Assembly: GCA_902793635.1 (NCBI GenBank) | Contig: CADBEA010000006.1 | Coordinates: forward strand, 1-64,000 | DNA from: an uncultured Erysipelotrichaceae bacterium | GTDB lineage: Bacteria > Bacillota_I > Bacilli_A > Erysipelotrichales > Erysipelotrichaceae | Direction of reading: 5' to 3' | Length of the DNA stretch: 64,000 nucleotides | Shown here: piece after piece, positions 35,118 to 40,620 of the stretch | How the letters are laid out: every line of letters starts with the position of its first letter | Numbering within the stretch: the stretch's first letter is position 1 | Made by a program: the position numbers and the translations under genes | The notes under the pieces: model-generated | Database searches by the model: none | What the model was told of the DNA's origin: nothing | Seen by the model: only the letters and a program-made list of their open reading frames with translations

Positions 35118-36875
35118 TTATTCGCTATCTTTTTTTGTTATTTCAATTCCGAGGATATCGAGCTGGGCCTTGTCGACGACGTTCGGCGCTTCGCTCATCA
35201 TGTCGAAGGAACTGTTGGTCGTCGGGAAGGCAACGACATCACGGATGTTGTCAGTGCCGGCAAGAACCATGACCAGACGTTCGAGACCGATGCCGACGCC
35301 GCCGTGCGGCGGTGTGCCGTACTTGAATGCGTCAAGGAAGAAGCCGAAGCGCTGTCTGGCTGATTCCATGGTCAGACCGATAGCCTCGAAGACCTTCTCC
35401 TGCAGATCCTGATCGTGGATACGGATCGAGCCGGAAAGCAGTTCGTAGCCGTTGATGACCAGGTCATAGGCACGTGAGCTGACATGTTCGGGATCGCTGA
35501 ACAGTTTGTCGACATCTTCCGCTTTCGGAGCTGTGAACGGATGATGGCATGCCACCCATCTGCCCTCTTCCTCGCTGTATTCAAACATCGGGAAATCGGT
35601 GACCCACAGGAATCTGTAGACATTCTGAGGAATGATATCCAGTTCATGAGCGAGTCTGACACGCAGGGCACCAAGCGCGCTCAATGCGATCTTCGGTGTA
35701 TCGGCGATGATCAGCACCAGGTCGTTGTCATGCATGTCAAGTTCGCGGACGACGGCTTCTTTTTCGCTTTCGCTCAGCGGCTTGACAATGGAACCGGTCA
35801 GGGTGCCGTTTTCCATCTTCAGATACGCCAGTGCCTTGGCCTTGAAGCCGTGTTTGACGAAATCCTGCAGCTTGTCGAGACCCTTGCGGCTGTATTTGTC
35901 AGCGGCGTTTTCGAAACGCAGTGCACCGATGACGCCATTATTGTCGAGGACATTGCGGAAAACCTGGAATTCCGTGTCTTTGAACAGACCGGAAAGATCA
36001 CAGATCTCATTGCCGTAGCGCAGGTCCGGTTTGTCCGTGCCGAAGCGGCGGATACATTCCGCGTATGGAATGCGGACGAACTGTTCTTCAAGGTCGACAT
36101 TGATCGTTCCCCTGAAGATCTCGCGCATCAGCTTTTCGACGACTGCGAAGACGGTGTCTTCATCACCGAAGCTCATTTCGATATCGATCTGGGTGAATTC
36201 CGGCTGACGGTCGGAACGCAGGTCTTCGTCACGGAAACATCTGGCGATCTGGAAATACTTTTCCATGCCGGCGATCATCAGCAGCTGCTTGTAGATCTGC
36301 GGAGACTGCGGCAATGCCCAGAATTTGCCGTTGTAGATACGGGAAGGAACCAGATAGTCACGCGCTCCTTCCGGCGTGGAACGGGCCAGGATCGGTGTTT
36401 CGACTTCAACGAAGCCTTCCTGATCGAGCACGTTGCGGGCGATCATGCATACCTTGTGTCTGAGCATCAGGATCTGCTGCAGAACCGGTCTTCTGAGATC
36501 GAGATAACGGTATTTCAGACGGTTGTCTTCACTGGTGTCAGTATCATCGGCGATCGTGATCGGCGCTGTTTCGGCCCGGTTGACGATCGTCACGTCGCTG
36601 GCCAGCACTTCGATTTCACCGGTCTTCATCTTCGGATTGGCAGCCGAACGCAGCTGCACGGTGCCGCTGACCTGCAGGATGAATTCACTGCGCACTTCCT
36701 GCACTTTGCCAGCGGTCGTTTCGTCGAAGGTGATCTGGCAGATGCCGGAACGGTCACGCAGGTCGATGAAGACCAGCGAGCCGAGGTTTCTCCGTTTTGC
36801 CACCCAGCCGATCAGGGTGACGTTTTCATTGACGTTGCTGCGGCTCAATTCGCCGCATCCGCATGTACGTTTCAT
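35118..36875 (-). CDS. aspS: Aspartate--tRNA ligase
   Basis: A 585-residue class-II synthetase. An N-terminal OB-fold anticodon-binding domain (about 1-110) is followed by the catalytic core. Motif 2 is ARCFRDEDLRSDRQPEFTQID. A GAD insertion domain, as in bacterial-type AspRS, precedes motif 3, GIGLERLVMVLAG. The ATG shares one base with the hisS stop (TAATG), and AAGGGG lies upstream, so synthesis is coupled to hisS and controlled by the T-box. The C-terminal LGIEITKKD is normal. Confidence 0.96.
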   Translation of the reverse strand: MKRTCGCGELSRSNVNENVTLIGWVAKRRNLGSLVFIDLRDRSGICQITFDETTAGKVQEVRSEFILQVSGTVQLRSAANPKMKTGEIEVLASDVTIVNRAETAPITIADDTDTSEDNRLKYRYLDLRRPVLQQILMLRHKVCMIARNVLDQEGFVEVETPILARSTPEGARDYLVPSRIYNGKFWALPQSPQIYKQLLMIAGMEKYFQIARCFRDEDLRSDRQPEFTQIDIEMSFGDEDTVFAVVEKLMREIFRGTINVDLEEQFVRIPYAECIRRFGTDKPDLRYGNEICDLSGLFKDTEFQVFRNVLDNNGVIGALRFENAADKYSRKGLDKLQDFVKHGFKAKALAYLKMENGTLTGSIVKPLSESEKEAVVRELDMHDNDLVLIIADTPKIALSALGALRVRLAHELDIIPQNVYRFLWVTDFPMFEYSEEEGRWVACHHPFTAPKAEDVDKLFSDPEHVSSRAYDLVINGYELLSGSIRIHDQDLQEKVFEAIGLTMESARQRFGFFLDAFKYGTPPHGGVGIGLERLVMVLAGTDNIRDVVAFPTTNSSFDMMSEAPNVVDKAQLDILGIEITKKDSE

Positions 36876-38140
36876 TATTGTTCCCCTTCCCATTTTCTGA
36901 TTGTTTCAGCCAGTTCTTTCATTGCCACACTGACCTGGCTGCGGTCCGGCAGTTTGACATTTACCGTGCCGTTTTTCACTTCATCCTCACCGATGATGAC
37001 GGTGTATTTCGCACCGCTGCGGTCGGCGCTCTTGAACTGCGCCTTGAGCGAACGCGGCACCATGTTGCCTTCCGCCACGATGCCGGCCTTACGCAGATCC
37101 TGCACCGTCTTCAGCACGGTGCTTCCCACCTGACCAAGACCGATCACATAGGCGGCGCATGCCGGTTCTTCCTTGAAGGCGTGGCCTTCTTCCTTTGCCA
37201 GAGCGATCAGACGCTCCATGCCGATTGCGAAGCCGATGCCGGAAAGATCGGGACCGCCGTAATAGGATACAAAGTGGTCATAACGGCCGCCGGCGAAGAC
37301 GGTCGCCTGGGCACCGGAATCGGGTCTTGTCGAGACGACTTCGAAGACGGTGTGGGTATAGTAGTCCAGGCCTCTGACCAGATGTTCGTCGATCTCATAC
37401 GGAATGCCAAGCTCGTCCAGGCATTTCAGCACCTGATCGAAATAAGCGCGGGATTCCTCATTCAGATATTCGCTGAGCTTCGGGGCTGTCTTCATGCAGT
37501 CTTTGTCATGGTCGACCTTGCAGTCAAGAATGCGCAGCGGATTCTGTTCATATCTTCTCTGGCAGTCACCGCACAACTCGGAAAGATACGGTGCGAAGTG
37601 CTTTTTGAGAGCTTGGCGGTAGGCGGCTCTTGATTCGTCGTCACCCAGCGTGTTGATCAGTACCTTGACTGAGGAAATGTCCATGGACTTGACGATGTCA
37701 TAGCCAAGAGCGATCGTTTCGGCGTCGAGTTCCGGTGATTTGGCACCGATGTTTTCAATGCCGAACTGGGTGAACTGACGCTGTCTGCCCTTCTGGGGAC
37801 GTTCGTGACGGAACATCGCGCCAAGATACCAGAACCTGGCCGGCAGTTCCATGGAACCGTAAAGCTTGTGCTGATCAAAGGCGCGGATGACACCGGCGGT
37901 GCCTTCCGGCCGCAGCGTATAGGATTCCTGTCCCATCGCGAAAGTGTACATTTCCTTGTTGACCATATCGGAACTGTCATTTTCACGCTTGAAGACTTTC
38001 GTATCTTCAAAATACGGGGTTCTGATTTCGCGGTAGCGGTACAGTTCGGTAATGCGGCGGATCTTTTCCTCGGCATCATGCCAGGCAGCGATCTCCTCCG
38101 GCAGGATGTCGTATGTGCCCCTTGGTGTCTGATAGTTCAT
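36875..38140 (-). CDS. hisS: Histidine--tRNA ligase
   Basis: A 421-residue class-II synthetase beginning MNYQTPRGTYDILPEE. Motif 2 is ARFWYLGAMFRHERPQKGRQRQF. The histidine-specific blocks LVRGLDYYTHTVFE and GGRYDHFVSYYGG are clear, and a C-terminal anticodon-binding domain ends the protein. The start at 38140 has AAGGAGG upstream; the longer frame would run into the leader. It is first in hisS-aspS, directly after the T-box terminator. Confidence 0.97.
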   Translation of the reverse strand: MNYQTPRGTYDILPEEIAAWHDAEEKIRRITELYRYREIRTPYFEDTKVFKRENDSSDMVNKEMYTFAMGQESYTLRPEGTAGVIRAFDQHKLYGSMELPARFWYLGAMFRHERPQKGRQRQFTQFGIENIGAKSPELDAETIALGYDIVKSMDISSVKVLINTLGDDESRAAYRQALKKHFAPYLSELCGDCQRRYEQNPLRILDCKVDHDKDCMKTAPKLSEYLNEESRAYFDQVLKCLDELGIPYEIDEHLVRGLDYYTHTVFEVVSTRPDSGAQATVFAGGRYDHFVSYYGGPDLSGIGFAIGMERLIALAKEEGHAFKEEPACAAYVIGLGQVGSTVLKTVQDLRKAGIVAEGNMVPRSLKAQFKSADRSGAKYTVIIGEDEVKNGTVNVKLPDRSQVSVAMKELAETIRKWEGEQ

Positions 38141-38159: not shown

Positions 38160-38186
38160 TAAAAAGCGTCCTCATCCAAGGACGCT
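38160..38186 (-). terminator. T-box-controlled terminator of hisS-aspS
   Basis: Minus-strand AGCGTCCT-TGGATG-AGGACGCT, a perfect 8-bp stem, then TTTTTATTTT just before the hisS ribosome site. The 5' strand can instead be sequestered by the antiterminator containing the T-box sequence. Confidence 0.92.
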
Positions 38187-38380
38187 GTGCGCGCGGTACC
38201 ACCTTAGTTCATGCTTTCGCATGCCCTTTCTCCTTAACGCGGAATACGTACGTTCCTACTGAATTTCAGAACATCTTCTCAGGAGTGTCTTTCCCGTCCG
38301 CTTCTGCCAATGCTTTCACCGTACCATTGTCGCTGTATCAGTCCTGAGCGGGATCTCTCCGTCATTGAATTTTTGATAAC
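38187..38380 (-). promoter_or_regulatory. T-box riboswitch leader of hisS-aspS
   Basis: The invariant T-box AAGGTGGTACCGCG is at 38205-38192. Stem I is recognisable: CTCAGGA (38348-38342) pairs with TCCTGAG (38284-38278), and the distal loop contains GGTGAAA. The specifier side of the internal loop, immediately before TCCTGAG, reads GACAC (38289-38285). That is GAC for Asp overlapping CAC for His, matching the two synthetases encoded. Uncharged tRNA binding should stabilise the antiterminator and let transcription pass. Confidence 0.9.
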
Positions 38381-38418: not shown

Positions 38419-40620
38419 TCACTGCGCGGTGCGGACGACCGACTGCACCGATTCGACCTTGCGGACGTTGGCAATGACATTGTTGACATGTTCAAGATCG
38501 TGGACTCTGACGGTCATCTTGATCGTGCAGGTCAGGGTCTCGTGGTCGACAGTGGCGTTGACTGCCTCCATCGGTGCCTTGCACTGGGAGACGACGGTCA
38601 CGATATCGGTCAGCAGGAAGCTGCGGTCAAAGGCCCGAACCACCAGTTCCGAATCGTAGTATCTTTCCGTGTCGCCTTCGTCCCAGTAGACGTCGATCAG
38701 ACGTGACTTGACGCCCTGGATGTTGGCGCATTCGCGGCGGTGCACCTTGACACCTTCGTTCTTGGTGATATAGCCGACGATATCGTCGCCGTAGACAGGT
38801 TTGCAGCAATGCGACAGCGACATCTTCATCGTGTCGATGCCGGGGATGACCAGACCGCTCTTGGAAATGCGCTTCGGTGCCTCACGGGCGAAGATGTGGC
38901 TCAGTGCCTCGTCTTCGGAAATGCGCGATTTCTGATTGGTCAGCCGCTCGATCACCTTGGTCGTGCTGATTGATTTGACAGCGATGCCGTACATCAGATC
39001 TGTATAGTTGGAAACCCGGAATTCCTTATAGACATGCTCGAATTTCTTCTTGTCCATATAGTCTTTCGGATCAAAGCCGCGGCGCCGCAGTTCGTCACTC
39101 AGCATCCGCTCACCGTCCGTCACCCTTGCCTCATGCTTTTCGGTTTCCTTCCTGGCCAGGTAGCTGCGGATCTTGTTGCGGGCCTGGTTGGTCTTGACGA
39201 ATTTCAGCCAGTCCTCACTCGGACCGGTGCCCTTCATCGTCTTGATCTGCACGACATCACCGGTATGCAGTTCAGTATTCAGCGGCACCATGGCGTCATT
39301 GACGATGGCACCGACCGTGGTATGACCGACATCGGTATGGATGCGGTAAGCGAAGTCAATCGGCGTCGCGCCGCTCGGCAGGTCGATGACCCTTCCCTTC
39401 GGGGTCATGACGTAGACGTTGGCCGAGAAGACATCCTTCTGCAGGGTCTCCATGTATTCGGAAGCTGTCTCGCTGCTCTCCTCTTCGCTGTAGACGGCGA
39501 AGTTCTTGAACCAGGACAGTTTTTCCTCGATTTCGCGCTGTTCGGCTCTCGCGTCGTATTTGCGGCCTTCCTTGTAGCGCCAGTGGGCGGCGACACCGCG
39601 TTCGGCGATGGCGTCCATCTCCTCGGTGCGGATCTGCACTTCGAAGATACGGCCCTCGTCACCGATGATCGTCGTGTGCAGGGACTGATACATGTTCGTT
39701 TTCGGAACGGCGATATAGTCCTTCAGACGGCCCGGGATCGGTTTGTATTTGGCGTGGATATAGCCGAGGATCTCATAGCAGTTCTGCTCGGTCCTGGTGA
39801 CAATGCGGATGGCCAGCAGGTCAAGGATCTCATCGAAGCGCTTGTGCTTGGTGATCATCTTACGGTAGATCGAATACAGATGCTTGGAACGGCCGAAAAT
39901 GCGGAATTCGATGTTGTGCTCTTCCAGCATCTCGCTGATTTCGCGGATCATCGTGTTGACCGATTCGTCACGTTCTGTCTTCTTCGCTTCAACGAGGTGA
40001 GCGATATGATAGTATTCCTCACGGTTCAGATAATAGAAACTGAGGTCTTCAAGTTCGTTTTTGATGGCGCTGATACCAAGCCGGTGGGCGATCGGCGCAT
40101 AGACGTCCAGTGTTTCCGAGGCGATGCGCTTCTGTGATTTCTCCGGCTGATACTGCAGGGTGCGCATGTTATGCAGGCGGTCGACGAGCTTGATGAGAAT
40201 GACACGCACGTCTTTCGCCATGGCAATGAAGATCTTGCGGTGGTTGGCCGCCTGGTATTCGGGATCGTCCTTGCCTTTGTAGGTCAGAGTGCCGATCTTG
40301 GTGACCGCTTCAACCAGCTCGGCGATCTCTTCATCAAAATCCTTCGCCAGTTCCTCACGGCTGATGCCGCAGTCTTCAATTGCGTCATGCAGGAAACCGG
40401 CCGCGATCGTCTGCGGACCGACCCGCAGTGTCGCGAGAATATAGGCAACGTTGATGAGATGAATGAAATACGGTTCACCGCTGCGCCTGAACTGGCCGGC
40501 ATGGTGCTCGGCAGCGTAGTTCGCCGCCCGGCGGATCAGCTCCAGGCTGTTGGCGTCATGAATATAACTGCCTGCTTCCTTCATCACATCTTCCACTCCG
40601 GGATTTACATGATCTGACAT
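38419..40620 (-). CDS. relA: Bifunctional (p)ppGpp synthetase/hydrolase Rel
   Basis: A 733-residue long RelA/SpoT homologue controlling the stringent response. The hydrolase HD motif is intact (AAGFLHDAIEDC). The synthetase domain follows (about 230-350, with RIVTRTEQNCYEILG). Then come a TGS domain (VYVMTPKGRVIDLPSGATPIDFAY), a zinc-finger region (HCCKPVYGDDIVGY) and a C-terminal ACT domain. Both activities should be present. It lies downstream of apt but is separated from it by a terminator. Confidence 0.96.
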   Translation of the reverse strand: MSDHVNPGVEDVMKEAGSYIHDANSLELIRRAANYAAEHHAGQFRRSGEPYFIHLINVAYILATLRVGPQTIAAGFLHDAIEDCGISREELAKDFDEEIAELVEAVTKIGTLTYKGKDDPEYQAANHRKIFIAMAKDVRVILIKLVDRLHNMRTLQYQPEKSQKRIASETLDVYAPIAHRLGISAIKNELEDLSFYYLNREEYYHIAHLVEAKKTERDESVNTMIREISEMLEEHNIEFRIFGRSKHLYSIYRKMITKHKRFDEILDLLAIRIVTRTEQNCYEILGYIHAKYKPIPGRLKDYIAVPKTNMYQSLHTTIIGDEGRIFEVQIRTEEMDAIAERGVAAHWRYKEGRKYDARAEQREIEEKLSWFKNFAVYSEEESSETASEYMETLQKDVFSANVYVMTPKGRVIDLPSGATPIDFAYRIHTDVGHTTVGAIVNDAMVPLNTELHTGDVVQIKTMKGTGPSEDWLKFVKTNQARNKIRSYLARKETEKHEARVTDGERMLSDELRRRGFDPKDYMDKKKFEHVYKEFRVSNYTDLMYGIAVKSISTTKVIERLTNQKSRISEDEALSHIFAREAPKRISKSGLVIPGIDTMKMSLSHCCKPVYGDDIVGYITKNEGVKVHRRECANIQGVKSRLIDVYWDEGDTERYYDSELVVRAFDRSFLLTDIVTVVSQCKAPMEAVNATVDHETLTCTIKMTVRVHDLEHVNNVIANVRKVESVQSVVRTAQ

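Follow-up and report, generated by a model that had tools for sequence, protein, structure and literature searches.

T-box leaders ahead of hisS-aspS operons have been described before, and the motif GACAC, which holds the overlapping triplets GAC (Asp) and CAC (His), is characteristic of them (PMC5313534). Gutierrez-Preciado et al. 2009 are cited in PMC5313534 for the view that GACAC interacts mainly with aspartyl-tRNA, and in PMC4342826 for the suggestion that the hisS-aspS element adopts two alternative structures and senses both tRNA-His and tRNA-Asp. The hisS-aspS T-box of S. aureus has been labelled a histidine T-box (PMC7927825). On a broader scale, several thousand T-boxes are listed in TBDB with two or three candidate specifier frames each, and a T-box of Clostridium acetobutylicum that is read by both tRNA-Asn and tRNA-Glu has been reported by Saad et al. 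2013 (via PMC4052509). The literature therefore already contains the GACAC sequence, its association with hisS-aspS and the proposal of two tRNAs.

Here we examine a leader of this kind in a window of 64,000 nucleotides, the whole stretch of DNA analysed, from an uncultured Erysipelotrichaceae bacterium (contig CADBEA010000006.1). It has the same operon and transcriptional T-box architecture as the hisS-aspS leaders of Bacillota (L. parabuchneri, PMC5313534; B. methanolicus, PMC4342826), and GACAC in the specifier loop is common to both, as PMC5313534 reports for the latter. No difference of substance separates them, and the leader is another member from an Erysipelotrichales-type genome. It resembles the Asn/Glu T-box of C. 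acetobutylicum in having two overlapping codons in one specifier loop. There, however, by the account of Saad et al. available through PMC4052509, binding was reported for both tRNAs, in vitro as well as in vivo, whereas the window leader is known from sequence comparison, which favours one codon.

Register, terminator and operon

The T-box proposed in the initial annotation is the one Rfam match at the gathering threshold within the window (RF00230, E 8.9e-21), and its covariance-model score lies above the cut-off for the family (Table 1). The position first given, 38187-38380, was about right, but it came without a strand, which is minus. T-box, hisS and aspS follow one another on this strand, and Pfam matches bear out the proposed two-gene operon. 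As annotated, GACAC stands in the specifier loop, 5'-GGGAAAGACACUCCUGAG-3', at 38289-38285. In the RF00230 alignment GAC takes the specifier place, model position 94 is A, and C95-U96-C97-C98 are paired with GGAG at positions 15-18. The description of GACAC as lying directly before the lower stem I strand was thus nearly correct, the last C of CAC being already the first paired base of its 3' strand. The T-box motif with its UGGN bulge, GGUGGUACCGCG, is present, as is a competing terminator, whose region folds better than nearly all shuffles (z -2.70). Folded thermodynamically on its own, stem I gave no T-box-like fold (z 0.31), so that the evidence for the register comes from the covariance model and from covariation. 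The specifier GAC matches the amino acid of the downstream gene aspS, and its presence in the specifier place is not due to chance. A plasmid search with the leader as query returned no match.

Table 1. Features of the hisS-aspS leader and its surroundings, in window coordinates.
Feature	Position	Strand	Basis or remark
T-box leader RNA (RF00230), full model 1-219	38374-38175	minus	99.7 bits against a gathering cut-off of 93
GGAG, 5' strand of lower stem I	38357..38360	minus	G38357 pairs with C38285; helix covaries, 96.1% of cells paired
Asp specifier GAC, at Rfam model positions 91-93	38287..38289	minus	RF00230 alignment
Overlapping CAC (His), +2 from GAC	38285..38287	minus	ends in C38285, model position 95
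CUCC, 3' strand of lower stem I	38282..38285	minus	RF00230 alignment, covariation
T-box bulge UGGU, pairing partner of the tRNA NCCA end	38198..38201	minus	RF00230 alignment
Intrinsic terminator	38165..38186	minus	9 pairs, then U-rich tail; bases common to antiterminator
hisS, histidyl-tRNA synthetase	36875..38140	minus	Pfam tRNA-synt_His, PF13393
aspS, aspartyl-tRNA synthetase	35118..36893	minus	PF00152, GAD domain; overlaps hisS end
relA/spoT-type (p)ppGpp synthetase gene	38419-40620	minus	RelA_SpoT, HD, TGS and ACT domains

Two observations concern the surroundings of T-boxes in this genome. The relA/spoT-type gene lies just upstream of the hisS-aspS T-box, which places two amino-acid starvation responses side by side. 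Just upstream of the metG T-box there is a sub-threshold match to the cspA thermoregulator (L003 1050-1458; 65.6 bits, cut-off 78).

Conservation of GAC and CAC

We searched for HisRS in 118 genomes of the order and read the upstream DNA of 90 matches, finding a T-box in 81. All 81 leaders keep GAC; CAC at +2 is kept in 71, a difference with p = 0.0015 in a figure that ignores relatedness. The ten leaders lacking it read GACGC (L035, L041), GACAG (L045, L078, L079), GACAA (L083, L098), GACGU (L094), GACCC (L043) and GACAU (L099), where CAU is still a His codon. An IQ-TREE phylogeny built from the 81 HisRS proteins requires 6 changes to account for the losses, at least 5 of them forced by well supported branches, and the leaders that have lost CAC still drive operons with both hisS and aspS. 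In a two-codon T-box both overlapping codons would be conserved; here one is invariant and the other has been lost repeatedly. Another set of hisS-aspS loci in the order (L034, L036, L085, L089, L093, L103, L112 and L134) has no recognisable T-box motif upstream, and L112 carries a different, G+C-rich hairpin-like stretch where the T-box would stand.

Pairing in lower stem I accounts for the frequent retention of the C that ends CAC. In an alignment of 45 leaders, C95 is partnered by G18 in all 41 rows that have it, and in the 4 rows where it is lost the partner is not G in any, one of these being an A-U pair. The four-pair helix exceeds all 500 shuffles in both percentage paired and covariation and beats every slid version of itself on the same two measures. 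The last C of CAC is thus paired in nearly all leaders, though one pair could open.

Beyond these leaders, named genomes scanned for the GACAC T-box pattern gave at least 118 loci. Among those listed, 76 lie ahead of hisS-aspS and 20 head aspS without an intervening hisS; for most of these 20, at least 900 bases past aspS were read without meeting hisS. The occurrence of GACAC on aspS-first T-boxes indicates that the motif does not depend on a His gene. A further 15 of the listed loci lie ahead of hisS with aspS not seen, but they do not establish a hisS-only class: in 14 at most about 150 bases follow hisS, too short to judge, and L320 alone extends further, and its roughly 790 bases contain a transposase-like ORF but no aspS. 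The variable bulge base splits similarly among the GACAC matches listed, with 53 U and 38 C in hisS-first and 11 U and 9 C in aspS-first loci. In other families of the class, GACAC is found in 6/6 T-box leaders seen before hisS. In some Mollicutes/Erysipelotrichaceae genomes (L245 and L353, likely also L269 and L287) hisS-aspS is separated from the GACAC T-box by a gene for a protein of about 180 aa, judged by eye to be a GNAT-like acetyltransferase, which from this position would share the T-box control.

CAC in other T-boxes and the acceptor end

The overlap with CAC is in itself weak evidence of anything, since CAC appears at +2 whenever an NNC specifier precedes the usual A and the usual stem I C. 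In the same genome this holds for the T-boxes of tyrS (UACAC), leuS (CUCAC), ileS (AUCAC) and pheS (UUCAC). Across 12 further genomes of the order, 21/29 T-boxes labelled by their downstream gene have CAC at +2 (20 found by script, and L157, whose AUCAC was read by eye). With the four from the own genome this makes 25/33 Tyr, Phe, Ile and Leu T-boxes against 71/81 hisS-aspS leaders (Fisher p = 0.16), on a small baseline of 33 that is biased towards high-scoring T-boxes. In several tyrS leaders the sequence is UACACUUUGGAG, which departs from the common hisS-aspS form GACACUUUGGAG in the first base alone. By this sequence pattern, CAC is probably for the most part a by-product of the RNA stem, where a conserved purine and then the closing C of lower stem I come after an NNC specifier. 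The T-boxes recorded also include a tandem pair (G010:C17:76661-76874 and 76899-77112; L199, L212), about 25 bases apart and very similar in sequence. Both have GAACGUGUC in the specifier region, and the gene next downstream looks like an amino-acid ABC transporter.

The acceptor end can be compared in a similar way. In the 81 leaders of the order the variable bulge base is U in 64 and C in 17, never A or G; the single A-type bulge in the output, at L034, was rejected as a T-box because it lies in coding DNA. In the genome of the window tRNA-Asp ends in GCCA (G73) and tRNA-His has C73, so that a bulge U (by wobble) or C (by Watson-Crick pairing) can pair with tRNA-Asp and not with C73, with the caveat that UGGU against G73 gives a U-G wobble only and the perfect match UGGC occurs in just 17/81 leaders.

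True His T-boxes are at hand in those ahead of hisZ in the same genome and family, of which we compared 14 (L004, L182 and 12 others). They share with the window leader the T-box architecture and the presence of CAC. In hisZ T-boxes, however, CAC is in the canonical place, the stretch from its start through the last base of GAG being 12 bases long, and is followed by A or G; the bulge is UGGA in 13/14 and UGGU in one. In hisS-aspS leaders such as the window's that place is held by GAC, CAC falls two bases downstream of it, and the window bulge is UGGU.

A probable Asp T-box and its alternatives

Taken together, the leader is very probably an ordinary transcriptional Asp T-box with specifier GAC that drives both hisS and aspS. 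By the established T-box mechanism, uncharged tRNA-Asp would pair at two sites, through its anticodon GUC with the GAC of the stem I loop and through its free NCCA end with the UGGU bulge; an antiterminator would then form in place of the terminator and hisS and aspS would be transcribed, while with charged tRNA-Asp the terminator would stay. 

The initial annotation had instead proposed a sensor of two inputs, in which lower stem I would take two alternative structures, with GAC facing tRNA-Asp or, once C95-G18 opens, CAC facing tRNA-His. The idea draws on the presence of GACAC, on an operon of exactly hisS and aspS, on its suggestion in print (Gutierrez-Preciado 2009, as cited by PMC4342826) and on the precedent of the Asn/Glu T-box (Saad 2013, via PMC4052509), and it would also predict GACAC in most leaders of the order and in all six from other families. 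The comparison speaks against it: CAC has been lost several times where GAC and both genes were retained, its last base sits in a conserved pair, the bulge is compatible with tRNA-Asp and in no case has the A typical of hisZ, GACAC occurs on aspS-only T-boxes too, and T-boxes for other amino acids often have CAC at +2. We consider it improbable. A reading as a His-only T-box, for which the name given to the S. aureus element (PMC7927825) and the place of hisS as first gene could be cited, is far less credible still, given that the invariant triplet is GAC and that CAC is shifted by two bases from its place in the hisZ His T-boxes. A further reading has Asp as the main input, with a weak second response to uncharged tRNA-His in leaders that keep CAC, the lineages without CAC having become Asp-only. 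Such a response would require lower stem I to give up its closing pair and the anticodon to shift down by two bases, and we hold it to be about as unlikely as the two-input sensor.

The element is of a known kind, and it is the comparison that may be of use. The CAC-less hisS-aspS leaders and the aspS-only GACAC leaders argue against the published two-tRNA suggestion and are at the same time ready-made natural controls for an assay. If the weak tRNA-His response were true, the leaders would form a natural series on which to test how much slippage the T-box register tolerates. The comparison also carries a warning, as an overlapping CAC behind an NNC specifier is to be expected from T-box structure.
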